Assembly: GCA_030614915.1 (NCBI GenBank)
Contig: JAUXAG010000017.1
Coordinates: 1 to 45,391 of the forward strand
DNA length: 45,391 nt
Direction of reading: 5' to 3'
Source: Actinomycetes bacterium
GTDB lineage: Bacteria > Planctomycetota > Phycisphaerae > JAACET01
Under the pieces are notes generated by a model. It ran no database searches. It was not told the DNA's origin and saw only the letters and a list, made by a program, of their open reading frames with translations. The translations under genes were made by a program, and so were the position numbers. Below are positions 1 through 19,638 of the stretch, piece after piece; the first letter of the stretch is position 1; every line of letters begins with the position of its first letter.

Positions 1-285
1 GGCTGTAGAGGCACGGACGACATCTTCTACCTGGACGAGTTCAAGGCACTGCAAGCCAAGCACCCCAACTTCCATCTGTTCTATGCTCTTTCGGATATGA
101 AGCGCGGCCAAGAATGGGACGGCGAGAAAGGTTTTATCCACCTGGCTGTGGATAAGTACTTGCAGCCCGGTCCCAAACGCCAGGCTTTCCTGTGCGGCCC
201 ACCCTTGATGATCGAGGCGGTAACTGCTATTCTGCACGAGAAGGGCCTGAGCAACGCAGAGATTTTCTACGATAAATTCGATTAA
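1..285 (+). CDS. nqrF: NQR subunit F, C-terminal end (partial)
   Basis: The frame is open from base 1 and ends at TAA 283-285, giving about 94 residues of a C-terminus; the start lies outside the window. It carries the NAD(P)H-binding end of a ferredoxin-reductase fold: GCRGTDD near the start, then DIFYLDEF, FHLFYALSD, GFIH and the terminal FLCGPPLMIEAV and DKFD. This order matches NqrF, the subunit of Na+-translocating NADH:quinone reductase that oxidises NADH and passes electrons through FAD and a 2Fe-2S centre. The GFIH plus CGPP plus DxFD ending is typical of NqrF, but a related NADH-oxidoreductase flavoprotein cannot be excluded from this piece. Its stop overlaps by 4 bases the stop of the converging cytochrome gene. 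Confidence 0.85.
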   Translation, partial: GCRGTDDIFYLDEFKALQAKHPNFHLFYALSDMKRGQEWDGEKGFIHLAVDKYLQPGPKRQAFLCGPPLMIEAVTAILHEKGLSNAEIFYDKFD

Positions 286-823: not shown

Positions 824-2281
824 CTAAGGCGATGATGGCTTAGCTTCACCGGCGATACTGATTACTTCAGCAGCATTTTCCGAGGCCTTGTCCAGCAGGT
901 CCATGGCATATTCGAGGTGATGGACTCCGCGGGCCTTGGCCACGAATTCGCAATTGTGCCTGGCCACCTCGAGCAGTTTCTTAGCTTTTGCCTTTTGGGG
1001 ATGTTCTTCAGCTAGGCCAGCGTAGGCTTTCTGGGCTCGGGCCAGTTCAGCCTGAGCTTCACCAAGTGTTTCACTGAGGACTTCGATCCACTGGTCCAAG
1101 GTACCTTTCATGGCGGATCCGTGGCAGTCCAGACAGGCCTTTTCAGTGGCTCGATACGTAGCCATGTCCGTGGGATGCTTTGGGCCCTCGAAGCTGGGGG
1201 CCTGGTGGCAGGCCAGGCAATCGACGTTGGTCTGGTGCATCAGGCTGGGCTGAGCCTGGACGCCTTTTCCGCCGCGACCGGCATACATATCCTCGTGGGC
1301 GCTATGCCCCGCCGAATGGCAGAGCCCGCAGGAAGCCTCTTTCTGGTAGGGTTCGGGGTGCAGGCCGTGGCGGATTTCGCTGTGGCACTGGAAGCACTCT
1401 ACCTTGCGCTTGCTGACGTGCCAGTCGTGCATGAACTTGGAGTCGGAGAATCTTTCCATTTTTTCGGGTTCGCCGTGGCAGTTCCGGCAGACCTGTTTGG
1501 CGACCTCGCCGGCGCCTTGGATGGCGTCAAAGTGGCATTTCCAGCAATCGACGTTGCGGGCCAGATAAGGCTTATGGTCGAAGGTTATTCCGCTGGCGAG
1601 TTTGATTGGTTCGCTGGGGTACTGGTGGCAGGAGGTGCAGCCGGCGATGGGGTCTTCCTCCCGCCCGTGTATGCGGCTCTTGAAGTGGCAGAGGAAGCAG
1701 ACGCTTTCGGTGACGGTGATATGCGAGCCCTGGACCATCTGAGAATGGCAGGAGGTGCAGCGGAGTTTCTTGCCCCTGCGCAGCTCGGTGAGGTGGGGTG
1801 TGTGATCGAATTTGTATTTACCCTTGAAGGTAGTCTCGCCTTTGAGCAGCCGGGTCTCATGACAGCCCGGCCTGAGGCAGGAAGCATCCTCTATTTCAGC
1901 GTGCGGTTTAGAACCATGGGTTCTGGTAAGAGTCTTAATCGGTTCGGTGGTGGCGGCAATTTTGCCTCGCAAAACGTTCTTCCAGCCGGGGGGGAAATGG
2001 CACTTTTTGCAAGCGACGGAGCTATGACTGGAACTTCTCCAGCTCTCAACATAGGGTTTCATGAAATGGCAGGAATCACAGAACTTGGGGGAATTGCTGT
2101 AGTAGAAGAAAAACCAACCAAACGCAGCCACAAGCCCAAGGATCAGCAGCAATATGATAACGCGGAAGCGGCGGGTTAAGAGCATCCATTGGCCCGGCTC
2201 CTGCGGATAACGAATGCCAAAAATTCCAAAAAATCTTTTGAACAATCCCAGCTTACGTCTAGCCTTTTCCTGCTGCTCCAT
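824..2281 (-). CDS. Membrane-anchored NapC/NirT-type multiheme cytochrome c (12 heme sites)
   Basis: A 485-residue protein with one transmembrane segment (about residues 38-62) followed at once by FCDSCHFMKP, the NapC/NirT-type first heme. I count eleven CxxCH motifs (CDSCH, CKKCH, CTSCH twice, CFLCH, CWKCH, CRNCH, CFQCH, CGLCH, CLACH, CLDCH) plus one CX4CH (CLRPGCH) between the second and third. The last 100 residues are helical and heme-free (from GTLDQWIEVL on). By family knowledge such proteins oxidise menaquinol at the inner membrane and feed periplasmic cytochromes. It sits between a small Cys/Trp protein upstream and a tetraheme cytochrome downstream. The exact electron acceptor is not readable. 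The start ATG has only a weak ribosome binding site. Confidence 0.9.
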   Translation of the reverse strand: MEQQEKARRKLGLFKRFFGIFGIRYPQEPGQWMLLTRRFRVIILLLILGLVAAFGWFFFYYSNSPKFCDSCHFMKPYVESWRSSSHSSVACKKCHFPPGWKNVLRGKIAATTEPIKTLTRTHGSKPHAEIEDASCLRPGCHETRLLKGETTFKGKYKFDHTPHLTELRRGKKLRCTSCHSQMVQGSHITVTESVCFLCHFKSRIHGREEDPIAGCTSCHQYPSEPIKLASGITFDHKPYLARNVDCWKCHFDAIQGAGEVAKQVCRNCHGEPEKMERFSDSKFMHDWHVSKRKVECFQCHSEIRHGLHPEPYQKEASCGLCHSAGHSAHEDMYAGRGGKGVQAQPSLMHQTNVDCLACHQAPSFEGPKHPTDMATYRATEKACLDCHGSAMKGTLDQWIEVLSETLGEAQAELARAQKAYAGLAEEHPQKAKAKKLLEVARHNCEFVAKARGVHHLEYAMDLLDKASENAAEVISIAGEAKPSSP

Positions 2282-2796: not shown

Positions 2797-4191
2797 CTAC
2801 TGGCCAGTCTGTGCGTCCGCCGCATTATCGCTCGATTCTTCCGCTTTACTGATGCCCAGTTCGTCGATTTTCCGATAGAGGCTGCTCAGGCCGATATTCA
2901 TGGCTTGGGCCGCTGCGTTCTTATCAAAATCATGCTGGCGGAGCACCTGAAGGATGTGCTGCTTTTCGTAGGCCCTTATGGCCGACTTAAGGTCGTCCCG
3001 AGGCGCTGACACGGTCGGAGCTGATTTACTGACAAAAGCAAGATCTTGCGGTTCTATCGGCGAGTCGTCCACGAAAAGGACGGCTCGCTCGATGACGTTC
3101 TCCAGTTCCCGAATGTTACCCGGCCAGGAATAAGCCATCATCGCCTGCAGAGCCCGCTCCGATATCTGGGGGCAGGGCTTGTTGAGCTCGCGGGAGTACT
3201 TGGCTACGAAGTAATCGACCAGTTGAGGAATGTCCTGGCATCGTTCCCGCAGGGCGGGCAGATGTATCTCGACGACATTAAGTCGATAATAGAGATCCTC
3301 ACGAAAACGACCTGCTTCGACCTCCTGGGCCAAATCGTGATTGGTGGCGCAGAGAATTCGGGCATTGACCTCAACGGGTTCAGTCTCCCCAACGGGGAGG
3401 ATGCGTTTTTCTTCAATGGCCCGCAGGAGTTTGGCCTGTATGGTCAGGGGCGTGGCGGAAATTTCGTCGAGGAAGATGGTTCCCTTTTCGGCCATCTTGA
3501 ATAGACCGACCTTATCGTGGGTGGCGTTGGTGAAAGCCCCGCGCTTGTGTCCGAACAATTCGCTTTCCACGAGGGTTTCGGGCAGAGCGGCGCAGTTTAT
3601 AGCCACGAACCTGCCGTGTTCGGTAATGCCGTTGTAGTGAATGGCCCGGGCGACGAGTTCCTTGCCCGTGCCCGTTTCGCCGGTGATCAAGGCGCTGGTG
3701 TTTGTCTGTGCGAGTTTGCGGGCCAGCTCCAACACCTCTCGTAGGGCCTGGCTGGTCCCGACGACACCCTCAAAGCGGTAGCGGTCCTCCAATTCGGTTA
3801 GCAGGAAACGGTTTTCATTGGCCAACTGACGCATATCCAGCAGGCGTTCAATTTTGATGAGGATATCGTCAAAAACGACGGGCTTGGTAACGTAGTCGCT
3901 GGCCCCGAGCTTGATGGCTTCGACAGCGTTTTCGACCGTGCCAAAGGCGGTGATAATGATGATCTGCGTATCGGGGGCGATTTTCTGTGCCTTGGCCAAG
4001 ACCTCCAGGCCGTCCAGGCCCGGCATGCGAATGTCCACCAGAGCTACATCAATATCCGAAGCGGTTAATTCCTCGACTGCCCGCAGGCCGTCCTCGGCTG
4101 TGATTACCTTGTATCCGCCATCCGTAAAGAACTCACTGAGCGTTTCTCGAATGGTCTTTTCGTCATCAGCGACTAATATCTTTTTAGCCAT
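2797..4191 (-). CDS. NtrC-family sigma-54-dependent response regulator
   Basis: 464 residues in three domains. The receiver (1-120) has the acidic pair D9/D10, phospho-acceptor D53 in VDIRMPG, T81 and K103. The AAA+ domain (about 145-375) has Walker A GETGTGKE at 171-178, Walker B GTIFLDEI at 237-244 and a sigma-54-contact loop reading GAFTNA at 218-223 in place of the usual GAFTGA. The C-terminal Fis-type helix-turn-helix includes NAAAQAMNIGLSSLYRKI. It is 12 bases downstream of the sensor kinase gene and surely its partner. The window holds five sigma-54-type promoters in front of cytochrome and cytochrome-maturation genes, which are the obvious targets; that link is inference. The G-to-N change in the loop is a natural variant worth noting, and it need not abolish function. 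Confidence 0.95.
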   Translation of the reverse strand: MAKKILVADDEKTIRETLSEFFTDGGYKVITAEDGLRAVEELTASDIDVALVDIRMPGLDGLEVLAKAQKIAPDTQIIIITAFGTVENAVEAIKLGASDYVTKPVVFDDILIKIERLLDMRQLANENRFLLTELEDRYRFEGVVGTSQALREVLELARKLAQTNTSALITGETGTGKELVARAIHYNGITEHGRFVAINCAALPETLVESELFGHKRGAFTNATHDKVGLFKMAEKGTIFLDEISATPLTIQAKLLRAIEEKRILPVGETEPVEVNARILCATNHDLAQEVEAGRFREDLYYRLNVVEIHLPALRERCQDIPQLVDYFVAKYSRELNKPCPQISERALQAMMAYSWPGNIRELENVIERAVLFVDDSPIEPQDLAFVSKSAPTVSAPRDDLKSAIRAYEKQHILQVLRQHDFDKNAAAQAMNIGLSSLYRKIDELGISKAEESSDNAADAQTGQ

Positions 4192-4203: not shown

Positions 4204-6033
4204 CTATGCAGTAGTATCTTGGCTGGGAGCATTGGCCGAACCAGGCTTGTCGGCATCTCGGCCGGGCGCTGGAAACGAAACGGTAACGACCGTGCCGCGG
4301 CCGGGGGCGCTGTCAATGTGAATACGGCCCTGGTGGTACTCGATAAACCTGTAGCAGACGGCCAATCCCAGGCCGGTACCTTTGCCGGGGGACTTGGTAG
4401 TATAGAAGGGCTCGAGGGCTTGTCGAATCTGCTCCTTTGTCATGCCGCAGCCGCCGTCCTTGACCATGACCTTCACCCAGCTATCTTCGGCAAGGCGTTC
4501 GACGCGAATAACCTGCTCGCCCTCCAGATCTTCCACGGCATCAAGGGCATTGAGCAAGAGGTTGACCAGAATCTGCTGAAACTGCTGCGGAATGATCCGC
4601 ACTTTGGGCAGGTTTTTGTTGCGGATGCTCTCTATCCGTGCCTGGCGTACGCGGAGGCTGTAGCGCAGCATCTTCAGAGTCTGTTCGATCAGATCATCCA
4701 GGTCTGCAATGACCCATTCACTGGGAGCCGGTTTGGCAAAATCCACCAATTGCTTAACGATTTTGGCAATTCTGTCGATCTGCTCGTGCAAGGTGTGCAG
4801 ATGCCGGTGATCCTCGGCACAGCGCTGGCGGCGGTTGAGCAACTGCACGACCGCCGAGAGGCAGGCCAAGGGGTTTCCTATCTCATGAGCTATTCCGGCA
4901 GCCATCGTTCCTATAGCCACCATCTTTTCGCCTTGGGCCATTTCACGCTGATTCCTTCGCAGTGTTTCGGACATGGCCAGGACTTCGCGGTTTCGGGCCC
5001 GCAGGTTCTGCTCGAGTTGTCGCTGCTCGGTTATATCCTCAGCCACTACCACGTAGCCCAGATGTTGTTTGCTCTCGTCGAAGACGCCGGAAGTACTGGT
5101 CTGGAACTGTCGCGGCTGGCCCGAAGTGCTGGGCACCTGGACGGCAAAGCTCTCAGGAGGAAGAACCGACGAGGCTCCCCTGAGCCGCTCGATATAGGCT
5201 TGTATGGCCTTGGGTAGCTCGACCCCGCCGGCGGACGCAGGGTCTTGTTCAGTTGAATCACGGAAAAACCAGCGGGCGGCCGCAGGATTCCACAACTGCA
5301 GTTCGCCTTCGGGAGAGAGGAAAATGACCACTTCAGACATACTGGTGATAATGGAATTCAGGAGATTGCGAGCATGAATAATCTGCCGCTCGGTAGCCTG
5401 GAGGCGCCTGCTGATGGCTGTAGTAGCGTAGACCGCCACATGCATGGCTGCGCCGAAAGCCAAGACCTCCAGGCCGACGAAGGTCCAGTTGTGGTAGTAC
5501 TGCCCGGCAAAGCCCAGGGCTAGCGGATGGTATAAATTGGGCACGGCTGCCTGCAATGCCCCCACCAATCCAAGCAGCACCGTGGCCAGGCTAGCGACTA
5601 GGTAGCTAAGGCGACGGGGAAGGAGGATGCCAGCACAAACCACATGAAAGACATAAAAGATGATCGCCGGGCTCTCAACGCCACCGCAAAAGTATATGAT
5701 AGCGGTCAGCGAGCTCACGTCAGCCACTATTTGCACAAGCCAGAGTCTTTGGGCTCGCTCGAAGGTCAGCCGGGCTCCGCCCGAGCCCATGGCGATGCTT
5801 ATCAAGGTGTTGTATCCCAGAACTGCCAGGCCGATGACGACAAGAACGGCCAACTGGTCGGTTCTAATCACACCAGTAAGTTGCGCCAGAAGAGCACCGA
5901 CAATGATAGCGGTACCACCAATCCAGCGGAGCCTGACCGTCCAGAGAGCGTTACGGACCAGCTCGCCCTTGAAAGGCTGCAAGTCGTAAACCGGGTCAAA
6001 TGCAGTTGGCTTAGTAAGCAAGTTGATTCCCAT
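4204..6033 (-). CDS. Membrane sensor histidine kinase with PAS domain
   Basis: 609 residues. The N-terminal 200 residues contain about six hydrophobic segments (from about 37 to 205). A PAS-like domain follows (about 220-340, NSIITSMSEVVIFLSPEG), then a HisKA domain with AGIAHEIGNPL (phospho-histidine 383), and a HATPase_c domain with N box around N495, G1 DGGCGM, F box FYTTKSPG and G2 GTGLGLAV. It phosphorylates the downstream response regulator. The signal is unknown; the membrane domain could sense a quinone- or envelope-related cue, but no ligand residues are recognised. It is transcribed divergently from resB, with a sigma-70-type promoter at 6069-6097. Confidence 0.94.
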   Translation of the reverse strand: MGINLLTKPTAFDPVYDLQPFKGELVRNALWTVRLRWIGGTAIIVGALLAQLTGVIRTDQLAVLVVIGLAVLGYNTLISIAMGSGGARLTFERAQRLWLVQIVADVSSLTAIIYFCGGVESPAIIFYVFHVVCAGILLPRRLSYLVASLATVLLGLVGALQAAVPNLYHPLALGFAGQYYHNWTFVGLEVLAFGAAMHVAVYATTAISRRLQATERQIIHARNLLNSIITSMSEVVIFLSPEGELQLWNPAAARWFFRDSTEQDPASAGGVELPKAIQAYIERLRGASSVLPPESFAVQVPSTSGQPRQFQTSTSGVFDESKQHLGYVVVAEDITEQRQLEQNLRARNREVLAMSETLRRNQREMAQGEKMVAIGTMAAGIAHEIGNPLACLSAVVQLLNRRQRCAEDHRHLHTLHEQIDRIAKIVKQLVDFAKPAPSEWVIADLDDLIEQTLKMLRYSLRVRQARIESIRNKNLPKVRIIPQQFQQILVNLLLNALDAVEDLEGEQVIRVERLAEDSWVKVMVKDGGCGMTKEQIRQALEPFYTTKSPGKGTGLGLAVCYRFIEYHQGRIHIDSAPGRGTVVTVSFPAPGRDADKPGSANAPSQDTTA

Positions 6034-6068
6034 GACAAAATACTAGAGAATTCTTCCCACTAACGGGA

Positions 6069-6182: not shown

Positions 6183-6277
6183 ATTATGCTATTGGAAGTA
6201 TTTTTTCCGGCTGGGCGGGGCAGCGGCCGCAGGGCTATGGGTCTGGGTGATTTGCCAGTCACATTCGAGGTAGAGAA

Positions 6278-7696
6278 GTGAAGCAACTGCGTCAAGTACT
6301 GCTCTGGGCGGTTTTGGGCGGAGTCACCCTGCTTTTGGTCCTGTCGATTATTGGGGCCTTTCTTGGCGATGAGCGGGCTAGGGTCCTGTTCAATTCGCTG
6401 CCCCTGGCAGTCTTTTGGATTCTCTTGCTGGGTTTGCTGCTCGCGGGGCTGCTGTACTTCAAGAGGCTGATTCGCTCACCGGGCTTGCTTGGGGTCCATC
6501 TGGGATCCTTGCTGATCCTCGCTGGGGCCATGTACGGCTCCGACGCCGGCCATGCGTTGGCGGCAAAGCTTTTCGATAGTAAAAAGATTCCCTCCGCCGA
6601 CATGCAGATATTCGAAAGCCAGACGGAGAACCACGTTATGGCTACCGGCGAAACGCATTTTTCAAGGCTCCCCTTCAGTGTGGGTCTGAAAGACTTCTGG
6701 ATCGAGTATTATCAGCCTTGGCCGCTCATTGCCAGGACTTTGACGGATGACCAAGATGGGCGGAAGAAATGGGAGCGAAATATCATCCACTGGACCAAGG
6801 GCCAAGAGGTAGCGATTCCTAACACTAAGATCCGGCTGCGGGTCTTAGAATATCTTGAGACTGCCCGCCCCATATATGCGGAGGGTTTTGGTCGGGTATT
6901 GGAGATAACCCAGCCAGACGGCAAAAAGACCACCATACCCGCCCAAGTCGGCCAAGAACTGGTTTTGGAAGAGCCCCAGCTGCACGTGCGGATAGCCCGG
7001 GTTTTTTCCAATCTTAAAGTCCAGACCTCTGGTGAAGAACACCAGGTGGTTAATGTACCTGGGCCACCGACGAATCCGGCACTAAAGATTCACATCGATC
7101 TGGGGGATGGCCAGAAAACGCACCGGTACGTTTATCCCTTTAGACAGATGCACGATCAAGAGGAAGATAAATTCAAATTCCGCTACCTGTTCCTCGAGCC
7201 CGAAGGAGCCGAGCACGATCCTGACAGTCACCAGCCGGCCATGGAGATACTACTAAAATATAAAGACAAAGAGCATCGGCACTGGCTGATTGTTGATGAA
7301 GGCCAGCATTTTGCGAACTTATGTTTGGATGAGCTTTTGGACACAGAAGTAGATGAGCATGAGCAGCACCCATACCTGCGCTTGAATGAGCCGGGACAGG
7401 GGGAAATACGCGAGTTCAAGAGTGATCTGGTCGTTCTGGAAGAGGGACAGGTAGTCAAGAGCAAGATTATCGAGATGAATGATCCGCTACACTACGGCGG
7501 ATACCACTTTTATCAATATAAGTACGACGGGAGGGCCGGCCGCCTGAGCCCTTACACCATCTTGTCGGTAACGTCGGATTCGGGTCTGACCATGGTCTGG
7601 CTCGGGTTTATTCTGCTGACTGGGGGTGTGTTCTGGCTGTTCTGGGTCAAACCGATCTGGGGTTATCTGAGAACGCGGAGGTCCGATGCATCTTAA
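6278..7696 (+). CDS. resB: ResB-like cytochrome c biogenesis protein
   Basis: 472 residues from GTG at 6278, with GAGG at 6267-6270 as ribosome binding site. Three N-terminal membrane segments (about 7-27, 39-62 and 70-90, the last with HLGSLLILAGAMYG) are followed by a large periplasmic domain. A last membrane segment near residues 430-455 (GLTMVWLGFILLTGGVFWLFWV) is preceded by the LSVTSDSG stretch usual before the ResB terminal helix. ResB partners CcsA/ResC in System II heme attachment to apocytochromes c. The next gene is CcsA, overlapping by 11 bases. Such a system is needed for the many CxxCH proteins here. Confidence 0.88.
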   Translation: MKQLRQVLLWAVLGGVTLLLVLSIIGAFLGDERARVLFNSLPLAVFWILLLGLLLAGLLYFKRLIRSPGLLGVHLGSLLILAGAMYGSDAGHALAAKLFDSKKIPSADMQIFESQTENHVMATGETHFSRLPFSVGLKDFWIEYYQPWPLIARTLTDDQDGRKKWERNIIHWTKGQEVAIPNTKIRLRVLEYLETARPIYAEGFGRVLEITQPDGKKTTIPAQVGQELVLEEPQLHVRIARVFSNLKVQTSGEEHQVVNVPGPPTNPALKIHIDLGDGQKTHRYVYPFRQMHDQEEDKFKFRYLFLEPEGAEHDPDSHQPAMEILLKYKDKEHRHWLIVDEGQHFANLCLDELLDTEVDEHEQHPYLRLNEPGQGEIREFKSDLVVLEEGQVVKSKIIEMNDPLHYGGYHFYQYKYDGRAGRLSPYTILSVTSDSGLTMVWLGFILLTGGVFWLFWVKPIWGYLRTRRSDAS

Positions 7697-8474
7697 ATTT
7701 GACACCATCCAAGGCTGGCTGATTTATGCGGCTATGCTGGGCTATCTCCTGGCCTTTATCAGCTCGCTGGCGAGGTACAAGAAGCTTAGAACGGTGTTCT
7801 ACGTGGCGGGGTTTGGCCTGGCAACAGCAGGCTTTGTCTACCGCTGGTACGACGCGGGGCATGTGCCTCTGCAAAACCTCTTTGAGGTTTTCCTTTGCCT
7901 GGGAATGCTTATGTATCCGCTGACCGTTTTTTGCCGACGGTTTCTGGGCATAAAAGGGGAAACCGTAGATGCCTTGATAGGCTTTATCATCCTGTTTCCG
8001 GCCGGCTTTGTTTTCAATGCTGAGCCTCAACGGCTTCCGCCGGTGTTGCAAAGCTGGCTCTTTGCCCCGCATGTAGCGGCCTATATGTTCGCCTACGTGA
8101 TCATGGCCAAGGCCAGTGTCCAGGCTGTAGGGCAACTACTCTGCCGGGGGCGGGAGGAAGCCGGGGCCTATGAGCTGGGAACGTATCGGATGGTTTGTAT
8201 GGGGTTTCCTCTGCTGAGTTTGGGGCTTATTCTGGGGGCCTGGTGGGGTAAGATCGCCTGGGGTGACTACTGGAACTGGGACCCGAAGGAGCTGTGGTCG
8301 TTAGTATCCTGGCTGGTATATCTGGGATATTTACATTTTCGATACATGTTCGGCAGAAAACACCCGCGCATCAATTCTGCCATTGCCGTCTGCGGGTTCT
8401 TGGCCATCATCATTACTTTGCTGTGGGTTAATTTAGCCAAGATTTTTGCCGGTCTGCATAGTTATGCAAGTTAA
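7686..8474 (+). CDS. ccsA: CcsA/ResC-like heme handling and cytochrome c synthase protein
   Basis: 262 residues with about seven to eight membrane segments. The tryptophan-rich WWD-type signature WGDYWNWDPKELWSL is clear. Histidines in FAPHVAAYMF and near the C-terminus (AGLHSYAS) fit the external heme-ligand positions of CcsA. It presents heme at the outer face of the inner membrane for ligation to CxxCH. The ATG lies inside the end of resB, with GGAGG 4 bases upstream, so the two are translationally coupled. Both should be transcribed from the sigma-54-type promoter at 6168. Confidence 0.92.
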   Translation: MHLKFDTIQGWLIYAAMLGYLLAFISSLARYKKLRTVFYVAGFGLATAGFVYRWYDAGHVPLQNLFEVFLCLGMLMYPLTVFCRRFLGIKGETVDALIGFIILFPAGFVFNAEPQRLPPVLQSWLFAPHVAAYMFAYVIMAKASVQAVGQLLCRGREEAGAYELGTYRMVCMGFPLLSLGLILGAWWGKIAWGDYWNWDPKELWSLVSWLVYLGYLHFRYMFGRKHPRINSAIAVCGFLAIIITLLWVNLAKIFAGLHSYAS

Positions 8475-9147: not shown

Positions 9148-9762
9148 TTACTGCTCGTGGCAGACGCGGCACATGACGTTGTCGGTGTGTGTCTCAGTAT
9201 CGTACTCCCAGCGGAGGGCGTGCTCGCCGATACCGCTGCTGTGCACGTCGTGACAGCTCGAGCACTGCATCTTGTGCTGATCGTCCAGGAGAACAGCGTC
9301 GATTGTGCCTTCTCCCGTTTGCGAGCCGGCCGTTGTGGGGTTTTCCAAGTGCTCATCCTCTAAAGCCAAAGCGGCATCGTAAACGAACGAGATAGGATGG
9401 CTGTAGGCCAGATCGCTATGGGTGCCTGGTTCAAATTTGGCCGTCGAATCTGAGGCAAAAGGCAGCTGGAAGAAACTGTAGGTGCCGTCATGGCAACCTA
9501 GGCAGAGCTTGCTGGGCCCGTCCGGCTGCTCGACATCTGCATCCAAGGTCTTGCTGTCGTAGAGTTCGAAAGTCGGGATCCCGTCAGAATTCTGGGCCGT
9601 GCTCCACAGCGGCACACCGTGGGCATCTGGATCGGCGGGGTCGCCGGATCTGTGCACGACATGGCAATCGTGGCAGCCATAGTCACTGTGGACCGCCAGC
9701 AAAACTGAATTGCCGCCCAACAACACAAGAATGCCTACCAAAACTAGAAGTTTTCCTTTCAT
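9148..9762 (-). CDS. Secreted tetraheme cytochrome c
   Basis: I choose ATG at 9762, with GGAGGA 7 bases upstream. A longer frame to 9783 would translate the ribosome binding site. The 204-residue product starts MKGKLLVLVGILVLLGG, a signal peptide, and has four CxxCH motifs: CHDCH, CLGCH, CSSCH and CRVCH. SHPISFVYD and CHDGT are shared with the 12-heme protein encoded at 10305-12023 (HPISFVYDSTLA, SCHDGT), so the two are homologous; this one looks like a short version of its N-terminal part. It is a monocistronic gene with its own sigma-54-type promoter at 10007-10021 and a leader of about 240 bases. Confidence 0.88.
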   Translation of the reverse strand: MKGKLLVLVGILVLLGGNSVLLAVHSDYGCHDCHVVHRSGDPADPDAHGVPLWSTAQNSDGIPTFELYDSKTLDADVEQPDGPSKLCLGCHDGTYSFFQLPFASDSTAKFEPGTHSDLAYSHPISFVYDAALALEDEHLENPTTAGSQTGEGTIDAVLLDDQHKMQCSSCHDVHSSGIGEHALRWEYDTETHTDNVMCRVCHEQ

Positions 9763-10002
9763 ACTACATTCCTCCATTAGCACTGATCCTGGCCATCCAT
9801 AACTAATAAGAAGATGGCCTCAACTTAGACACTTCAACACTACTTCTTTCGATCTTGTCTGTTATGGCGATTGTTCCGATTTCGGTGGCTTTGGCTCCCC
9901 GTTCGAAGCAATCACCTTTACCTAGAGCACCTTCTCCCTCATGACGGCGGTGTGTCTGTTCTGGAGGCTCAACTCTGCCGTCCTGTGGAGTCATCTATCA
10001 AT
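9763..10002 (-). other. Long 5' leader of the tetraheme gene
   Basis: About 230 bases lie between the predicted start of transcription and the ATG. On the minus strand GTGATTG and CAATCGC (around 9875-9915) can pair over 7 positions, enclosing a loop with GGGGAGCCAAAGCC. A 63-codon frame (9803-9994) also exists but has no ribosome binding site and is not recognised. I see no convincing match to a known riboswitch. Confidence 0.3.
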
Positions 10003-10304: not shown

Positions 10305-12023
10305 TTACGGGTAATCCTCGTCGTCATGGTTTTCGTTGTGGCATTTCAGAGTGCACGAGCCTTTTCTAAAGCCTCTATCTTCGAAAAAGGGACCGTCGCC
10401 GGAATCGGCCGGCCCTACCACGTCACCGTCGAAGTTTATCAGATGAGCGCCGCTTCTCGAACCGATCTGGGTGGCACTTATGCCGTGAGGGTCGTGACAC
10501 ACCGAGCAGGGAGTATTTTTATCCAGAATGTGTTTCCTATGCTCATCGAAGGGATTATTATTTTCGGCCAGGATTTGGTTGCGGTTGTGGCAGCGATAGC
10601 ACAGGGCGTAGGCGGTGGGGCTTTCGGGAGTATGGTCGATGGTGGTGTAATTACGCACTAGCAGAGGCTGATTAGCCGAGCCGTGCGGCCCGCGAACGCC
10701 CTCGGCCGTGGAGTCCGAACCGTGGCAGTCGGTGCAGTAAATGATCGAGGTGGGATTGAGCGGTTGAAGTAGACTCGGCACGTCCATATTTTTGCCCTGG
10801 GCCTCGACGGGATGATAGCTGGGGTTGGAGGGTGAGAACTCGTCAGCCACATTGTTGTTGCGGATGACCCGGTCAATAATGGGCGAGCGAACAGGATTGT
10901 TCCAGGCGTGGCACTTGTAGCAGACCTCGTATTCGTAGGTGGCCTGGGGGGTAACCGCGCCGGAGCTGCTAACCCCGGAGACCCCTTTCATAACGGGCTT
11001 TATGAGAGGCGCACGTACAGCGGATGAGGCGGAGGCCTGATGGGGATTGTGGCAATCGGCGCATTCGACGTGGTCAGCCATGGTCAGGGGGGCCTCGGTG
11101 GGGTCGTGGACCCCGGTAGTGCGGCGAACCGGATGGGCGGAGGTTTTGAAGAACTCGGAGGAAAGATTTCCCCTCGCCACGGAACCGTCGTGACAGGCAA
11201 AGCAGTTTTCCTCTTCGGCCTCCTGGCGGAGCAGTCGTTGTCGGCCGCCGGCACTATGAGGCCGGTGGCAGCTTTCGCAGCCGGCTTGGCGAACGGAGTT
11301 GGCCCTTAAATTGTCCCACTCATCCCCTTGGGCGACGGACAAAGACGCCGAGGAGGTGGCATGGGAGGAAGAAAACCAACCGTCAAGGTCGTGGCAGCTG
11401 GTGCACATCTGGGATTCCAGATTGTCCATGCGCAGGAAATAGCCGAAGCTGTCGTCGTGGGGGTCGTGGCAGGTCGTGCACTGGAGCTGATGCTGGTGGT
11501 CGAGCGGCAGCTCCGGGGGGAGTGTTGCCGGGTCACGGAGCCCCCGTTTGCGCGTGGCCAGCGTCGAGTCGTAGACGAAGGAGATGGGATGGTCGTCGGT
11601 GAGATCAGTTCCGATGTAGCCGGCATCGCCAGGTGAGATAAAGATAGTCTGTCCCTTGATGGCGTTTCGCGAGTTGTAGGTTTCGGTCAAAGCGATGGTA
11701 CCGTCATGGCAGCTCAGGCAGAGGCGCGAAGTGCCCGTGGGCTGGCCCACGGCAGCTTTGAGGGTGGTGCTTTCGTACGTCTCGTAGTAGGCGCCGGAGT
11801 CATTTCTGTTCCATAGCGGGGCGATGGGATTGGAGGCGTGAGGAGTATGGCAGAATATGCAGACCTCGCTGGCACCGGCAACCTTGATGGGACCTGGGCC
11901 GCTGGCCGTAAGATTGTGCTTGCTGTTGACTACACTGGAACTCTCCTGAGCGCTGCTGCCTGCCGGCAGAAGCATGCAGAGGCAGAGGAAAACTGTGCTA
12001 GCGATTAGAAGACGCTTGTTCAT
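10305..12023 (-). CDS. Secreted multiheme cytochrome c (12 heme sites)
   Basis: 572 residues with a signal peptide (KRLLIASTVFLCLCMLLPAG, cleavage near SSAQE). There are eleven CxxCH motifs (CIFCH, CLSCH, CTTCH, CTSCH, CESCH, CFACH, CADCH, CYKCH, CTDCH, CYRCH, CSVCH) and a CX3CH (CTLKCH) close to the C-terminus. The first segment, ASEVCIFCHTPH, and the recurring CHDPH/CHNPH forms are typical of large outer-surface or periplasmic cytochromes of metal-reducing bacteria. AGGA lies 7 bases before the ATG. The gene overlaps the NHL lipoprotein gene by 26 bases and is last in the conduit operon. A surface-exposed terminal reductase or wire component is a reasonable inference. Confidence 0.9.
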   Translation of the reverse strand: MNKRLLIASTVFLCLCMLLPAGSSAQESSSVVNSKHNLTASGPGPIKVAGASEVCIFCHTPHASNPIAPLWNRNDSGAYYETYESTTLKAAVGQPTGTSRLCLSCHDGTIALTETYNSRNAIKGQTIFISPGDAGYIGTDLTDDHPISFVYDSTLATRKRGLRDPATLPPELPLDHQHQLQCTTCHDPHDDSFGYFLRMDNLESQMCTSCHDLDGWFSSSHATSSASLSVAQGDEWDNLRANSVRQAGCESCHRPHSAGGRQRLLRQEAEEENCFACHDGSVARGNLSSEFFKTSAHPVRRTTGVHDPTEAPLTMADHVECADCHNPHQASASSAVRAPLIKPVMKGVSGVSSSGAVTPQATYEYEVCYKCHAWNNPVRSPIIDRVIRNNNVADEFSPSNPSYHPVEAQGKNMDVPSLLQPLNPTSIIYCTDCHGSDSTAEGVRGPHGSANQPLLVRNYTTIDHTPESPTAYALCYRCHNRNQILAENNNPFDEHRKHILDKNTPCSVCHDPHGISATQIGSRSGAHLINFDGDVVGPADSGDGPFFEDRGFRKGSCTLKCHNENHDDEDYP

Positions 12024-13053
12024 CGTCTGTTCCTATATACTGAAAGATTTGAACGCGACTGTTGTAGCTATCGCAGACAAAGATTCTGTTGCTCGCATCG
12101 ACGGTTAGGCCGGAGGGCACCTGAAAGGCGCCGGCTTTCTCGCCCGGACCGCCGAAGGCCAGCAGGAAGCGGCCCTGCTGGTCGTAGACCTGAACTACGG
12201 AAAAGCGTGAATCAACTACGTAGATGTTTCCGAAGCTGTCGACGCCGACGCCTTTGGGCACGGCCAGGTACCCGGACGCGTCCCCGAGTTCGCCGATGTC
12301 GAAGAGGAATCGTCCTTGCCGATCGAAGACCTGCACGCGGAAGTTGAGAGAATCGGTGACGTATACCCGCCCGGTGTTATCCACAAAGACGTAGGTGGGA
12401 TAGTTGAATTGGCCGGGTTCTCTTCCCGGAGAACCGAAGCGGCGGAGGAGACGACCGGACAGCTCGAAAACGCAGACCTCGTTGGCCAGAGTATCGACGA
12501 CGTAGATGAGTTTTGCTTGGGGATCGAAGGCCAGGCCCGTCGGGCGTTCGAAGCCCCCGGGCTTTTCCAGAGTGTTTTCCAGTTTTCCATCGGGCTTGAG
12601 CAGAAATACCTTTTTCAGGGCGCTGTCAGCGACGGCGATTCTGTCATCACAGACAGCTACGGCCACCGGTGAGACGAAGAAGACTTTGCCCGCACGGTCG
12701 ATGAAAGAGCTTTTCGAGGAATGAAAATTGAACAGGTGGACGCCCTGCAGTTCCAGGTCGGTTACGTAGAGACATTGGTCGTCATGGACGGCCACGCCCT
12801 GCGGCCGCAAAAGATTGTGCCTTCTCGGCCCTAGGATGACTTCGCCCAGGCGTTCCATGAAGCTTGGATGTTGATCGAAATCGGCCGAACCGGATACGGT
12901 TCGCAGAAGGGCGATTCGCGGCGGGGCAGGCGGGGGAGGCCAAAACGCCAGGGGCTGTTGCGGGGGCTGCTTGGGGCTGCAGCCGAAGGTGAATACAGCC
13001 ATCAGAAATGCAGCGAGCAGTCCCGGAATATGCCGGCCTAATTGAGCTGACAT
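11998..13053 (-). CDS. NHL-repeat six-bladed propeller lipoprotein
   Basis: 351 residues. The N-terminus has a hydrophobic stretch and lipobox FTFGC (Cys 25), then the short proline-rich motif FWPPPPAPPRIALL. The rest is a series of NHL repeats (LLRPQGVAV, RPTGLAFD, YPTYVFVD, VPKGVGVD, VPSGLTVD, each followed by a YV-TD or YVVDS strand). Such propellers often bind proteins or ligands; in multiheme cytochrome operons they are frequent accessory lipoproteins of unknown role. A homolog is encoded at 18532-19638. GAGGG lies 7 bases before the ATG. The gene sits between the barrel and the 12-heme cytochrome genes, which suggests a role in assembling the conduit. Confidence 0.88.
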   Translation of the reverse strand: MSAQLGRHIPGLLAAFLMAVFTFGCSPKQPPQQPLAFWPPPPAPPRIALLRTVSGSADFDQHPSFMERLGEVILGPRRHNLLRPQGVAVHDDQCLYVTDLELQGVHLFNFHSSKSSFIDRAGKVFFVSPVAVAVCDDRIAVADSALKKVFLLKPDGKLENTLEKPGGFERPTGLAFDPQAKLIYVVDTLANEVCVFELSGRLLRRFGSPGREPGQFNYPTYVFVDNTGRVYVTDSLNFRVQVFDRQGRFLFDIGELGDASGYLAVPKGVGVDSFGNIYVVDSRFSVVQVYDQQGRFLLAFGGPGEKAGAFQVPSGLTVDASNRIFVCDSYNSRVQIFQYIGTDDEQASSNR

Positions 13054-13063
13054 GAGCGTGCCC

Positions 13064-15073
13064 TCAAAAGCGACGTATCAGATAAAAACCCACAGAGTCT
13101 GTGCTGCCTTCACTGGATTGCTGCGTAAAGATATCGTGCCGAGCCTGCAGGGAAAAAGCAAGGTTACGGTATTTCCATTCCAGCTGGAATCCCAGTCGCA
13201 CAAGCTTATCATTTTCGCGTCCCTGAGTGCGGATGTAGTCGCCCGTAAAGCGAATAAGGGTGTTGGCCCGGATTTTGGCGGTCAGAGCGCCGTAGGCCCG
13301 GTTGGTATCGAGGAAATCCCGTTGGGGGTCAAGGCCGAACTCGACGGCCCTGTCGTAGCCGAGTCTTTGGATCTCGCCTCCCAGCGAGAGATTGAGATTG
13401 CGACCTAATCGCCGGTGGAAGCTGGCCCGCAACCGGGTGCTATCCGAGGGCGGAGAGAGTTCCTGGTCGCGTATTTCGTGTTCGGCGGTGACCTTTAGGC
13501 CCTTATACTCCGTCTCCACGCCAAAGACTCTGACTGCCAAGGTATCGAGGTTCCCGGGATCATCACCCGAACGAAGAATTTCGTCGCGGAGGCGGTAGTC
13601 GAAGTAAAGCCAGAGGGGAAGGTCCAGGAATTTGAGACGATTGGTCCAGTTGAGATGGTTGGTGGTAAACTCCGCCTCCCGGGCTGCCTGAATAGTATAG
13701 TCGATCAGGACGTTCTCCGGGTCGACGATACCGCCGCCGGCCAGCCGGGCTATTTCGGTAAAGGCGCCGACGGTGTTGACGGTATAATCGGTGCCCTGGA
13801 CATAGACGGTGGTCTCCGCTGAATTCGTCACTGTCAGCGAGCCCAGCACGTTCGGCTCACTCAGCTGCGAGAAGGCTAGGCCCGTAAGAGTGACCGACTC
13901 GTTGCGAATAGAGCGCAGGCCGCCGCTTGATTCTTCCTTCTCGTACTCTTTTCCCAGCAGCAGTGAAGACGTGTATTGGCCCAGGGGAGTCTTCTTTCGA
14001 TAGTCCATATCCAGAAAACCACCGACGATGTCCTCGGATCCGTCCTCAAAACGCCGGTCGGTAAAGAGCAGCCGGCCGATTATGTCCAGGCTCTCGTAGA
14101 TGCTTTTGCTGAATCCCACCTCGCTGCTGACGGTCTGGTCTTGTTCCAGGTCTGTCTTGTCCAGGCCGTAGAAAAGCCCGTAGAAGCTGGACAAGGTGTC
14201 GGAGTGGACCAGGTCAAGTCGCTGGTCGGCGGTGAAGACCTGGTTTTCGAAGAATCCACGCCTATCCATGGCACGGAGGGATCCTCTATAGCGGTGTCTT
14301 TTTTCCCCGGAGCCGAAACGCCGCAGGTAGGCAATATCCAACTCGTGGCGGCGGTCGGGCAGGTCGCTGATGACGTCCGGGCCGCCGCCGGAGGGGTGGA
14401 AGATCGCGGTCTTATCAGTATTTTCGTACTCATAAATGAGCTTGGCCTGCCGGTCCCAGCTACGCTGGTCGCTGATGGTAAAACGGAGTTGTCTTGTGTG
14501 CTGCTCTTCCTCCCGGAGGTCGCTTTCCTCGCGGAGCTTGATATTCTCCAGCAGCAGGGACATGGGAAAGCGTCCCTTGGTGAGAATTTCCAGACCTTGG
14601 TGTTCTCTTTCCACCTCCAGGCGGCGGGCAAAGTCCCGATCGAGAAAATCCTGGGTCTGGGAGGCAAAGGCTTGCAGGGTAATGGGCTTCTCTTTCAAGA
14701 AGATTGCCGAGAGATTGTAGCCGACAATATTTCCGTCGGAGTCAAAATCCTCATTGTTTATGTCGATCCACTGCTGTTGCAGGCCCAGTCGAACGCTTGC
14801 GTCCCACTCGATCAGATTGGGGTGGTAAAAATATCCGTGGCTGTACAAGTCGAGACCTTCTTCAAAAAAGATATCTGTCTCCCTGGTTTCGAAACCCGAG
14901 GGGGTGCTTTCCTCGTCTTCCAACTGGAATTCGCCACGAAGGAAGAGCTCCCCTTTTATGGGGACCATTGCGAAGGGGCGAATGGGATAGCGCTGCTGGC
15001 CTTGGGCGTTTAGCGGCACGGCTGCGGCGATAAGCAGGCAAAGGAGAAAACTCTTGGCTGGGGAAACGGACAT
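13064..15073 (-). CDS. Large outer-membrane beta-barrel of a porin-cytochrome conduit
   Basis: 669 residues with a signal peptide (FLLCLLIAAAVPLNAQG). The mature part has alternating polar/hydrophobic strands throughout, no long hydrophobic helix, many short Asp/Gly turns, and ends in FYLIRRF with a terminal Phe, the outer-membrane insertion signal. The length would allow roughly 22-28 strands. It has no CxxCH. Neighbours on the same strand are a 10-heme lipoprotein and a 15-heme cytochrome upstream and an NHL lipoprotein and 12-heme cytochrome downstream. By analogy with Pcc and Mtr systems it would form the pore through which a cytochrome crosses the outer membrane. AGGAGG lies 8 bases before the ATG. 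Confidence 0.85.
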   Translation of the reverse strand: MSVSPAKSFLLCLLIAAAVPLNAQGQQRYPIRPFAMVPIKGELFLRGEFQLEDEESTPSGFETRETDIFFEEGLDLYSHGYFYHPNLIEWDASVRLGLQQQWIDINNEDFDSDGNIVGYNLSAIFLKEKPITLQAFASQTQDFLDRDFARRLEVEREHQGLEILTKGRFPMSLLLENIKLREESDLREEEQHTRQLRFTISDQRSWDRQAKLIYEYENTDKTAIFHPSGGGPDVISDLPDRRHELDIAYLRRFGSGEKRHRYRGSLRAMDRRGFFENQVFTADQRLDLVHSDTLSSFYGLFYGLDKTDLEQDQTVSSEVGFSKSIYESLDIIGRLLFTDRRFEDGSEDIVGGFLDMDYRKKTPLGQYTSSLLLGKEYEKEESSGGLRSIRNESVTLTGLAFSQLSEPNVLGSLTVTNSAETTVYVQGTDYTVNTVGAFTEIARLAGGGIVDPENVLIDYTIQAAREAEFTTNHLNWTNRLKFLDLPLWLYFDYRLRDEILRSGDDPGNLDTLAVRVFGVETEYKGLKVTAEHEIRDQELSPPSDSTRLRASFHRRLGRNLNLSLGGEIQRLGYDRAVEFGLDPQRDFLDTNRAYGALTAKIRANTLIRFTGDYIRTQGRENDKLVRLGFQLEWKYRNLAFSLQARHDIFTQQSSEGSTDSVGFYLIRRF

Positions 15074-15158
15074 TAGCCCATCCTCCTGCCGAGGCTCTGG
15101 GCCTGGGGTCTTTGGTCCATACGACTGATTATGCTTGTTATGGACATCACCCAGGCCC

Positions 15159-16169
15159 CTACCGGTTGACCGGAATACCCGGTTTCAAAAGATGCTCCCG
15201 CTCGGAGCGATGGCCTGCATGACAGAACAGACAGTCCGCACGCTGGACCGGGGGATGACTGCTGGTGCGGATCTCCTCGGGTTCATGGCAGTTATAGCAG
15301 ATCTGTTCCCCGGATGGCCTTATCAGGTGCGGGCGGGATGATCTGTGCGGGGTATGGCACAACGTGCACTGCCCCTGGCGAACCGGAGCATGAATTTCTT
15401 GGCCGGGGCCCGCCTCGAGCACCTTTTCGTGACAGGAAAGACAGACCGGGTCAACATCGTCTACTAGCTGATTGGATTTCTCTACAATGTGGCACTTGGC
15501 ACAATCGGCCTTTGCCCACTGTGTATGGGCAGGAATCTGTTTGGTTCGTCTTCTTCGCCGGTAGGTTCTTGAATCGGCCAGTAACAGACGATTTCCGGCC
15601 AAGTGGGGGTCGTGGCATCTCGAGCAGGCTCCTTCCTCTGCAGCCTTGTGATAGGGCTGTTGCAGAACGTCCGAGGCCTGGTGGCACCTCAAGCACAGAT
15701 CAGTCTCAGAAGCTGTCAGCAGGTTCCGGTGCTCCGACTTGTGCGCTTCGTGACAGAAAGAGCACTGGCCCAGGGCCACTGGGCCGTGGACCCAGTCGGA
15801 CTTCTCGTAGCGAAAATAGGCCCCGTGACATTTCCGGCAGAGTTCGGAGCCGTCTGCTGAAACCTGATAAGAGGTCCGAACGTCATGGCACTCAGAACAT
15901 TGCCCTTGCTGCCAGGGAGCATGATAAAAGAAAACCTCCGGCTTCCTCGGCTCTGACGCTTGGTCTGGTTCTCCCTCCGCTCTCCCTGGGCCGACAACTT
16001 CCTTAGGTTCCATGCCCTCCGGCGGAGGCACGCCATCGAAAAAGAAAGACAGAACGTGATACTTGGTAACCTTGCTGCAGCCGGCGTACAGGGTGCACAC
16101 GCCCAGCATCAGAGCAATGGGAATTACTATGCGCTTTAGGGCGAAGTTGAGGCTCATTTTCGGCAACAT
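15159..16169 (-). CDS. Decaheme cytochrome c lipoprotein
   Basis: 336 residues. A signal with lipobox TLYAGC is followed by a segment of about 60 residues containing YHVLSFFFDGVPPP. Then come ten CxxCH motifs: CSECH, CRKCH, CSFCH, CLRCH, CSRCH, CAKCH, CLSCH, CTLCH, CYNCH and CLFCH, in paired blocks of the HGPVALGQCSFCHEAHKS type. The FFFDGVP motif occurs N-terminal to hemes in other lipoprotein cytochromes associated with outer-membrane conduits. The lipid anchor suggests it sits on the outer membrane. Its ATG follows the stop of the 15-heme gene by 2 bases. An 85-base gap with no clear terminator separates it from the barrel gene. Confidence 0.9.
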   Translation of the reverse strand: MLPKMSLNFALKRIVIPIALMLGVCTLYAGCSKVTKYHVLSFFFDGVPPPEGMEPKEVVGPGRAEGEPDQASEPRKPEVFFYHAPWQQGQCSECHDVRTSYQVSADGSELCRKCHGAYFRYEKSDWVHGPVALGQCSFCHEAHKSEHRNLLTASETDLCLRCHQASDVLQQPYHKAAEEGACSRCHDPHLAGNRLLLADSRTYRRRRRTKQIPAHTQWAKADCAKCHIVEKSNQLVDDVDPVCLSCHEKVLEAGPGQEIHAPVRQGQCTLCHTPHRSSRPHLIRPSGEQICYNCHEPEEIRTSSHPPVQRADCLFCHAGHRSEREHLLKPGIPVNR

Positions 16170-16171
16170 TC

Positions 16172-17629
16172 CTATTCGGCCCAGTCGTTTTGCCCACCAG
16201 GGGTAGAACTCCCCGGTAAAGGCTGCAAGTCCGAGGGCACATTCGAGGGCCCATCATCAGAAACAGTATTCACCCGGTCGTAGGCTTTGCTCTGATGACA
16301 GCCGGGACTGCACGTGCCACCGTTGTCAGTGGCTGTAAAGTTTATTGGTACCCGCCATTGGCCAAACGGCACCGACTCGCGGAGCAATTGAGGGTTTTTG
16401 CTTACGTGCCGGGCATGACAGGTGCGGCAGGTGCGTCCTTTTCTCTTTTTGTTTACGTGGAGATAGTGCAAGTTGGTCTGCCCGTTTCTAAACTCGGTGG
16501 CCTCATCGGTCTTAACTGCCGTAGCCAGGGACTCGTCGTGGCAAGTAAAGCACAGACTGTAGGCTTGGGGGCTGTAGGGGCTGTAGAATGTCTGCGGGTA
16601 TTGGCCGCGGAAGAAACGGTATTGCTTATTGGCATGCGGTTCGTGGCATGCCGCACAGTCCAGCGATTTGCCGGGACCGTGGCGGTGTAGGTCCTCGGCC
16701 AATACTTCCTTGAGGCTGGCGATAACACGGCCATCGGCCGACTTGACGTCTTCAGCGTGGCAGGTAAGACACAGACTCTGCGAATCGCCAAGCAGCAGGT
16801 ACTCCAACTTGGCGGCGTGAGGATCGTGACAACGGGCGCACTTCTTGCCTTCCAGCAGCAAGTGGTGGCGGCTCGACATCTGGGCAACCGTGGGTTTGAA
16901 ATCGTCGTGGCAATCGACGCACAAGTCCGGGGTGGTCTTTGCCAGGCCTTTTCCCGCCAGTTCTCGATGGGCATCGTGGCAGCTCGAGCAGCCCAAGCCA
17001 ACCGGGCCGTGGACCATGGCGGCTTGAGTGATAGTGTCCTTGAGATCGTTGTGGCAGGAATAGCAGAGGTCGGGGGATTTGGCTCGCAGGTATGAGGCAG
17101 TGTCGGATGAGTGCGGCTGGTGACAAGAGGTGCATGCTTCGATCTTCTCGGCATCGTGGTACATACCGCCTTGGGCTACTTTGTTGTGACAGCTTAAACA
17201 TAAGTCGTTGGTGGTCTTAAAATTCAGCAGTTGTTTGCTAAGGCTGCTATGGGGATTGTGGCAGATGGTGCAGGGCGCCTCTTTGTCTTTGAGGGGAGCA
17301 TGGACGAGTTTCTTTTCGGTGACGCTTTCGTGGCAACTGTAACACAGCTCGGTGCCGGTTGCTGGATAAGAGAAGGCGTGGCGGTTTCCGTCAGCTTCAT
17401 GACATAGCTGGCAGGCATCGTCGCCCTCGGCCAGAGGCCCGTGGACCACGGGGCGGGTCCGTAGGCTTGCGTGGCATTGTTCGGCCAGGCAGGAGCTTCC
17501 CGCTTCGATGGTCTGCGGCGCTTGGCGCTGCTGGGCGAGCAAGACTGAGATCTGAAAGCAGAGCACGCCTGAAACCACGGCCAGCGTAAGCATTCTTCGA
17601 ACTGTTGGGGTGATCACCTGGTTTGGCAA
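16172..17629 (-). CDS. Periplasmic multiheme cytochrome c (up to 15 heme sites)
   Basis: The frame is open from 17803, but the signal peptide (RRMLTLAVVSGVLCFQISVLLAQQ) lies far inside. I choose TTG at 17629, with GAGGA 5 bases upstream, giving about 485 residues. There are thirteen CxxCH motifs (CQLCH, CYSCH, CTICH, CLSCH, CTSCH, CYSCH, CSSCH, CVDCH, CARCH, CLTCH, CAACH, CFTCH, CRTCH) plus CX4CH near the N-terminus (CLAEQCH) and CX3CH near the end (CSPGCH). Repeats of the form VHGP..G.CxxCH.AH resemble the 10-heme lipoprotein. It is first in the conduit operon and is probably its periplasmic cytochrome. The long frame starting at 17803 remains an alternative. Confidence 0.87.
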   Translation of the reverse strand: MPNQVITPTVRRMLTLAVVSGVLCFQISVLLAQQRQAPQTIEAGSSCLAEQCHASLRTRPVVHGPLAEGDDACQLCHEADGNRHAFSYPATGTELCYSCHESVTEKKLVHAPLKDKEAPCTICHNPHSSLSKQLLNFKTTNDLCLSCHNKVAQGGMYHDAEKIEACTSCHQPHSSDTASYLRAKSPDLCYSCHNDLKDTITQAAMVHGPVGLGCSSCHDAHRELAGKGLAKTTPDLCVDCHDDFKPTVAQMSSRHHLLLEGKKCARCHDPHAAKLEYLLLGDSQSLCLTCHAEDVKSADGRVIASLKEVLAEDLHRHGPGKSLDCAACHEPHANKQYRFFRGQYPQTFYSPYSPQAYSLCFTCHDESLATAVKTDEATEFRNGQTNLHYLHVNKKRKGRTCRTCHARHVSKNPQLLRESVPFGQWRVPINFTATDNGGTCSPGCHQSKAYDRVNTVSDDGPSNVPSDLQPLPGSSTPGGQNDWAE

Positions 17630-17851
17630 TGTAGTCCTCGATGTCAATAGTGTCTCGGCGGGCAAACCTGGCTCTGCCGGGTAGGTCTCTGGGCATAGAC
17701 AGAGTCTGATTGGCCGGGCCGCCCGGCAAGGCAGTATCAGTTCCAGGTCTGTTTCCGACGACTTCTTTGTCAATTCACCAAGGGCAGCAGACTCGGGAAG
17801 CATCGGCGGTTAAGTCTGCCGCTGTAAAGCCTTTTTGTAATGCAAGCTACG

Positions 17852-18531: not shown

Positions 18532-19638
18532 ATGGGAAAGCTTATGATCAAAGAACATCGGCTAAGTGAATTTGTCTGGGTCGTCGCGGTTCTGGTGGTG
18601 GCACAGCTCTGTGGCTGTATCAGCACCCACAAACCGCCGGCAAGCTCAGAGAAGTATGTTTTCTATCCTCCCGGTCCTGATCCTCCGCGACTGCAGTTTC
18701 TAGTCAGCTTCAATGACGCGGAAACCTGGCTCAAAAAGCGTTCGTCGTTTGCGGATTTCATAGTGGGCGAGAAGAAAGAGACCCGCGGAGTGCTAAAGAG
18801 TCCCTTCGGAATTGCCGCCCGGGACGGCAAGCTCTATATCTGCGACTTGGGTAAGGACCTTATTCACATTATCGACCTGGGGCAGAAAAGCTACAGCGTG
18901 CTGGGCACGCCTGATCAGATACAGAATCCGACGAGCATCACTATCGATACTGACGGGACCAAGTACGTCTGCGACACCAAGAGGCGCATGGTACTGGTTT
19001 ACGATGCTGACGATAATTTCGTGGGGGAGTTGGGCGATCCCCAGCGCTGCGCCCCGCTCGACCTGGCTATCTGGGGAGACGAACTTTTTGTGTCGGACAT
19101 AGACCGCGAGCATGGCGGAGAAATAGAAGTGTGGTCCAAGGAGGGTAAGCTCCTTAGAACAATCAGTAGTAGAGGGAAAGGTCCGGATCAATTAAGTTGG
19201 CCGATGTTTTTGGAGATCGGGCCTGATGGTCATCTTTTCGTGGTGGACAGGGATGTAGCTATGGTTAAGGAATTTGACCTAAAGGGCAACTTTATCAAGA
19301 CAATCGGAGAACGAGGAGATATCGCAGGATATTTTCAGACGCCAAAGGGAATCGCCATCGACCCGAAGGGGCGATTGTACGTGGCCGATTCGGTTTGGTC
19401 AAATGTACAGATTTTTTCGTCGGACGGACAAATTCTTCTGGTTGTCGGCGAACCGGGCACAGCTCCGGAGGGCATGGGAGTTCTGGCGGGTCTGGCGATC
19501 GACAAAACCAGTCTGGATGTTTTTGGCCGATTTCTCAGCAAAGACTTTGAAGCGGAATACCTTCTTTTCGTGGTAACTCAGTTTGGCCCCTACAAAATGG
19601 GCAAGATAGGGGTTTACGCGTTCGGGCACAAAAAATAG
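18532..19638 (+). CDS. NHL-repeat propeller lipoprotein, homolog of 11998-13053
   Basis: 368 residues. A hydrophobic segment ends in lipobox AQLCGC, followed by FYPPGPDPPRLQFL, the same proline-rich junction seen in the other NHL lipoprotein. Repeats include KSPFGIAA, NPTSITID, WPMFLEIG, TPKGIAID and ADSVWSNVQIF. The protein ends with a GVYAFG strand. GAGG at 18517-18520 precedes ATG 18532 by 11 bases; ATG 18544 is an alternative. It has its own sigma-54-type promoter and is divergent from the conduit operon, so it is likely made with the cytochromes. The role is unknown; scaffold or ligand-sensing functions are guesses. Confidence 0.85.
   Translation: MGKLMIKEHRLSEFVWVVAVLVVAQLCGCISTHKPPASSEKYVFYPPGPDPPRLQFLVSFNDAETWLKKRSSFADFIVGEKKETRGVLKSPFGIAARDGKLYICDLGKDLIHIIDLGQKSYSVLGTPDQIQNPTSITIDTDGTKYVCDTKRRMVLVYDADDNFVGELGDPQRCAPLDLAIWGDELFVSDIDREHGGEIEVWSKEGKLLRTISSRGKGPDQLSWPMFLEIGPDGHLFVVDRDVAMVKEFDLKGNFIKTIGERGDIAGYFQTPKGIAIDPKGRLYVADSVWSNVQIFSSDGQILLVVGEPGTAPEGMGVLAGLAIDKTSLDVFGRFLSKDFEAEYLLFVVTQFGPYKMGKIGVYAFGHKK

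Follow-up and report, generated by a model that had tools for sequence, protein, structure and literature searches.

A gene island in an uncultured bacterium of the class Phycisphaerae (phylum Planctomycetota) probably encodes an outer-membrane electron conduit that is like the undecaheme electron transfer (Uet) system, features a cytochrome with 12 heme sites, and conducts electrons outward from quinol to the cell surface. The island is located in a 45,391-nucleotide stretch of DNA, called "the window" here, and all coordinates refer to it unless a related locus is named. The original prediction was of a porin-cytochrome conduit. That assignment is well supported by the model of the barrel, which is large and empty, and by the co-occurrence of the barrel with the 12-heme cytochrome.

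Gene content and heme sites of the island

Five tightly spaced genes are found on the minus strand in the order that had been predicted, i.e. CytA, CytB, barrel, NHL and CytC; neighbors are separated by 2, 85, and 10 bp, and one pair overlaps by 26 bp. CytA (16172..17803) is an MtrA/DmsE-like multiheme cytochrome with 15 sites (13 CXXCH, one CX4CH, and one CX3CH). CytB (15159..16169) is a decaheme protein (10 CXXCH) and a probable lipoprotein. The barrel gene (13064..15073), in a UetC-like position, codes for 669 residues that were modelled as an outer-membrane barrel. NHL (11998..13053) is a six-bladed propeller and likewise a probable lipoprotein; the lipoproteins had been predicted, although the lipoboxes of both proteins are not fully canonical. 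CytC (10305..12023) is UetJ-like, with 12 sites (11 CXXCH and one CX3CH) and an N-terminal OmcE-type tetraheme domain. The span originally given, 10305-17629, ends close to the methionine of the CytA signal peptide at 17596, near which the mature start probably lies. However, the longest CytA ORF begins at 17803, and the system also takes in 9148-9783, 18532-19638, and 282-8474.

The three cytochromes together contain 34 canonical and 3 non-canonical sites, and the predicted maximum of 37 was thus confirmed (13+2, 10, and 11+1 motifs). When the residues of CytB were shuffled 2000 times, the mean number of CXXCH motifs was 0.08 and the maximum was 3; its heme motifs are therefore not due to chance. 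Exactly 11+1 motifs were present in 104 of 108 CytC homologs, and 13+2 motifs in most CytA homologs. Thus, the non-canonical sites are conserved, which suggests that a twelfth heme site is a conserved feature of the central cytochrome known in the literature as undecaheme.

Several neighboring genes could serve the same system. A NapC/NirT-type inner-membrane cytochrome (824..2281, minus strand; 11 CXXCH and one CX4CH) is the probable quinol oxidant, in a role like that of ImcH or CymA, and a c554-type tetraheme cytochrome (282..776, minus strand) is a possible periplasmic carrier. ResB and CcsB, for System II cytochrome c maturation, are encoded on the plus strand (6278..8474). A sigma-54 response regulator (2797..4191) and a histidine kinase (4204..6033), both on the minus strand, are possible regulators. 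The gene cytS (9148..9783, minus strand), in a UetA-like position, codes for a divergent OmcE-like tetraheme cytochrome (4 CXXCH). On the other side of the conduit, a second NHL lipoprotein, NHL2 (18532..19638, plus strand), is divergently transcribed; its gene is paired with an OmcE-like tetraheme gene in relatives. Two other features were noted in the window: a 175-residue ORF (8501-9028) that lies between the conduit and the maturation genes and matched no family, and a two-domain sulfite/nitrite reductase (NIR_SIR; 24417-26777) that carries a TusA domain at its C terminus and is located near a ThiF gene.

The barrel and its adjoining cytochromes

The AF2 model of the barrel had a mean pLDDT of 93.4 and approximately 28 transmembrane strands by our own count, and it was open and free of a plug. 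A conserved inserted domain (residues ca. 386-462) is placed on the extracellular side by strand parity. A conserved insert in barrels of the family (residues 398-473 in the barrel of the window) resembles a phage tail-tube domain (NF052337, below the cut-off) and is a possible docking site. Among the 50 PDB hits listed, the top TM-score was that of MtrB (6r2q_B; 0.43/0.44, a weak value below 0.5), and TonB receptors, LptD, and ushers had scores of 0.40 or less. The barrel and the relatives tested had no family match in Pfam and nothing above threshold in NCBIfam, MtrB included, and the barrel profile found no MtrB among the sequences in the PDB. A scan of the genome contigs with the barrel alone as the query found nothing. 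The modelled fold favors an open, conduit-type barrel, without proving kinship to MtrB; an unrelated transporter, the outcome named beforehand as contrary to a conduit, was not obtained.

The original prediction also held that the proteins had no obvious similarity to Mtr. This was accurate for the barrel sequence but not for the cytochromes: CytA matched MtrA (PDB 6r2q_A) with an E of 7.5e-18, and both CytA and CytC were above the cut-off for the Pfam MtrC/MtrF domain. These matches, along with the rank of MtrB by TM-score among the listed barrels, are what would be expected of an ordinary Mtr conduit in which CytA, the barrel, and CytC were MtrA, MtrB, and MtrC, respectively. We consider this very improbable. 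Besides the missing MtrB matches of the barrel and its relatives, CytA scored 144 bits (and CytB 93 bits) against the MtrA/DmsE decaheme family, for which the cut-off is 192; CytA is absent from half of the related loci; the N-terminal domain of CytC is of the OmcE type; and MtrC was absent from the PDB matches of CytC. Membership in Mtr therefore fails on the unmatched barrel sequence and the sub-threshold score of CytA. The likeness to MtrCAB of Shewanella lies in the combination of a large, plug-free barrel with an MtrA-like cytochrome and a surface cytochrome. In contrast to that complex, the window has a barrel of ca. 28 rather than 26 strands, NHL proteins, and the OmcE-type domain in CytC.

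CytA is probably a periplasmic relay. Among relatives of CytB, five hemes were counted in 66 of 84 and ten in 7 of 84, the latter including the clade of the window; a protein with 18-19 hemes occupies the CytB position in two Verrucomicrobia loci (L081 and L150). CytB was absent from 18 of 85 loci, most clearly gammaproteobacterial ones, and CytA from 44 of 85; hence, either protein may be optional. In a genome of the same genus (L031), CytA does not adjoin CytB.

NHL propellers, the OmcE-type domain, and their distribution

Related loci were collected by similarity of the barrel or CytC to those of the window, and the resulting figures thus describe this family rather than all conduits. At least 551 relatives were found in an alignment scan with CytC. 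The best 80 of these were from Planctomycetota, Nitrospirota, Verrucomicrobiota, Bacteroidota, Calditrichota, Zixibacteria, KSB1, Proteobacteria, Desulfobacterota, Myxococcota, and others. The core of barrel, NHL, and CytC is shared by about 108 distinct loci, which represent roughly ten phyla. For the CytC loci with at least 5 kb of upstream sequence (n = 85), a barrel was present in 83, NHL2 in 80, an OmcE-like tetraheme cytochrome in 77, a CytB-like protein in 67, and a CytA-like protein in 41. Orthologs lacking multiheme cytochromes, which had been named as a contrary outcome, were not obtained; the barrel almost always accompanied the 12-heme cytochrome. Of 298 Phycisphaerae genomes, 73 contained relatives of the barrel, and the barrel-NHL-CytC order was retained in most of the barrel loci of that class. 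The system is patchy, since only 12 of the 294 genomes that were sampled throughout Planctomycetota contained CytC (E<=1e-60). In Bacteroidota and Calditrichota, the genes are rearranged, with NHL-CytC followed by tetraheme-NHL2-CytB-barrel-CytA.

Because the NHL profile included one NHL-multiheme fusion (L040), the adjacency of NHL genes was judged by ORF size and position, not by profile score alone. NHL was directly upstream of CytC in 98 of 102 cases (from the 108 distinct CytC loci), and NHL2 adjoined the tetraheme gene in 77 of 94. Co-variation was measured from the alignment distances between homologs across loci, and the correlated pairs line up as a chain that runs from the barrel through NHL and CytC to NHL2 and the tetraheme cytochrome. 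The partial r values were 0.49 for barrel-NHL, 0.25 for NHL-CytC, 0.28 for CytC-NHL2, 0.31 for CytC-tetraheme, and 0.39 for NHL2-tetraheme; in the same set of loci, the barrel-tetraheme and NHL-tetraheme distances were not correlated. Bootstrap intervals back the NHL-barrel and NHL2-tetraheme pairings. Kinship can inflate such correlations, but it does not easily generate the contrast between pairs. NHL propellers fused to multiheme segments (7 to 20 CXXCH, read in part) were present in six related loci (L040:4968-8255, L049:11925-13964, L064:15306-18773, L054:18041-19900, L136:1-2295, and L047:1-2079). The NHL propellers may thus be connectors in the electron chain. Both NHL proteins of the window (11998-13053 and 18532-19638) had a sub-cut-off match to ScyF, the NHL protein of the scytonemin cluster (NF035926). 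The omcQ region of Geobacter (GSU0592-0594) was considered as a counterpart for the NHL genes and was rejected, as GSU0593-0594 are cbcBA.

Residues 12-211 of CytC matched chain A of PDB 7tfs (7tfs_A; E 9e-23), which we take to be the OmcE nanowire subunit of Geobacter. The eight heme-ligand histidines of OmcE were found in every sampled CytC N-terminal domain (100%) and in most of the stand-alone tetraheme cytochromes, 86 of 94 of which matched OmcE at E<1e-5. Both kinds of protein thus share motifs and heme ligands with OmcE. They differ from it in that CytC bears eight more hemes, and in that the N-terminal ligand segment (KHDL) is missing from the cytS product of this genome. A sister species has both kinds of tetraheme cytochrome; its locus contains a canonical OmcE-like tetraheme gene (L031:5258-5881) and an extra NHL gene, neither of which is present in the window. 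Given the divergence of cytS and its missing KHDL segment, a nanowire in this particular organism is uncertain. The structural model of CytC (pLDDT 46.8) was not used for any reading. CytC is proposed to be the extracellular exit and adaptor. More tentatively, it may couple OmcE-type extracellular nanowires to the trans-outer-membrane conduit, its OmcE-type domain taking the place of a filament subunit and the NHL propellers aligning the barrel, CytC, and the filament.

The pairing of NHL genes with those of OmcE-type cytochromes (i.e. NHL with CytC and NHL2 with the tetraheme cytochromes) would also be consistent with a barrel that is mainly an export or assembly channel for CytC and the OmcE-like subunits, with the propellers as assembly factors and no wired pore. 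When the fold matches of the barrel are ranked by E-value, the usher FimD is near the top, and some loci have no CytB, as such a channel would allow. However, the modelled barrel has neither a plug nor the periplasmic domains of an usher, a cytochrome with 5-10 hemes adjoins the barrel in most loci, and mature cytochromes could exit by other routes. An export function of this sort is accordingly judged improbable, and the wired conduit is preferred.

Relation to known conduits and direction of electron flow

As described in two publications, Uet is a conduit of Ca. Tenderia electrophaga, Gallionella, and Leptothrix comprising the undecaheme cytochrome UetJ (11 and 12 motifs have been published), the tetraheme cytochrome UetA, the porin UetC, the NHL proteins UetHI, the triheme C7 cytochromes UetDEG, and the PPIase UetB (PMC10734462, PMC13386937). 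UetJ itself has been reported in Leptothrix too, undecaheme conduits have been noted in ghost-rock genomes, and porin-cytochrome complexes have already been reported in Planctomycetota. Four parts of the window correspond to this description: CytC (11 CXXCH and one CX3CH) to UetJ, by motif count rather than by UetJ sequence; the cytS product (4 CXXCH, divergent OmcE-like) to UetA; the ca. 28-strand AF2 barrel to UetC, by gene content rather than by UetC sequence; and the two NHL genes to UetHI. On the other hand, the window contains no triheme ORF that would correspond to UetDEG, no PPIase was present among the island genes scanned (a homolog was found in only 4 related loci), and the decaheme CytB, the 15-site CytA, and a planctomycetal host in which no oxidases were found are all unlike Uet. 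Because the triheme cytochromes and the PPIase are missing while four parts match, we class the window, compared with Uet by description only, as a functionally Uet-like variant rather than a strict member. The suggestion of a distinct conduit family is not upheld, as a conduit of this kind, down to its two NHL genes, was already known.

Two other systems are comparable by description. OetABI, of Geobacter and the sulfate-reducing partners of ANME, likewise combines a porin with cytochromes of the periplasm and the cell surface, with nanowire-type cytochromes nearby, but the reported partners are of the OmcS/OmcX type, not the OmcE type (PMC10553843). The Desulfovibrio ferrophilus clusters DFE_0448-0451 and DFE_0461-0465 are similar in joining an NHL protein to multiheme cytochromes; they differ in that no porin was reported there (PMC9769857).

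In the proposed route, quinol electrons would enter through the NapC/NirT-type cytochrome (824-2281) and pass via periplasmic hemes, i.e. those of CytA and possibly the c554-type protein, to CytB. CytB would lie inside the wide, empty barrel or against it, and its hemes would thereby span the outer membrane to CytC at the surface; this threading and the compartments are our inference. The NHL propeller would dock between the barrel and CytC. From the OmcE-type domain of CytC, electrons would reach the acceptor either directly or through OmcE-like tetraheme subunits that NHL2 may hold.

The genome (2.56 Mb, approximately 96% complete) contains pieces of complex I. No heme-copper or bd oxidase was found in it, and no molybdopterin enzyme besides one formate dehydrogenase, which was assigned by reading its sequence. 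All paired-CXXCH matches in the genome lie within the island. These absences are provisional given the completeness of the genome, and the conduit may be the sole respiratory exit found in it. With no oxidase and no other paired-CXXCH cytochrome detected, outward respiration is the best reading. The same conduit could instead conduct electrons inward, from Fe(II), another metal, or a partner, as has been proposed for the Uet systems of Tenderiales and Gallionella. The carriers of Uet that have been published are cathode or iron oxidizers, and conduits of this sort may be reversible. However, an internal acceptor is not apparent in this genome, in which neither kind of oxidase was found and, as a molybdopterin enzyme, only the formate dehydrogenase; inward flow is therefore thought unlikely, and outward flow is retained.

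The finding extends an under-described type of conduit to a phylum that is rarely linked with extracellular respiration, and it provides a lead on the pairing partners of the NHL propellers. The connection between cytochrome nanowires and the cell is poorly understood in Geobacter (PMC10553843). The OmcE-type domain in CytC makes that connection directly testable. If the tentative coupling of CytC to nanowires is true, it would reveal how nanowire and cell are connected, and it would represent a general nanowire-to-conduit machine distributed over about ten phyla, Planctomycetota among them.
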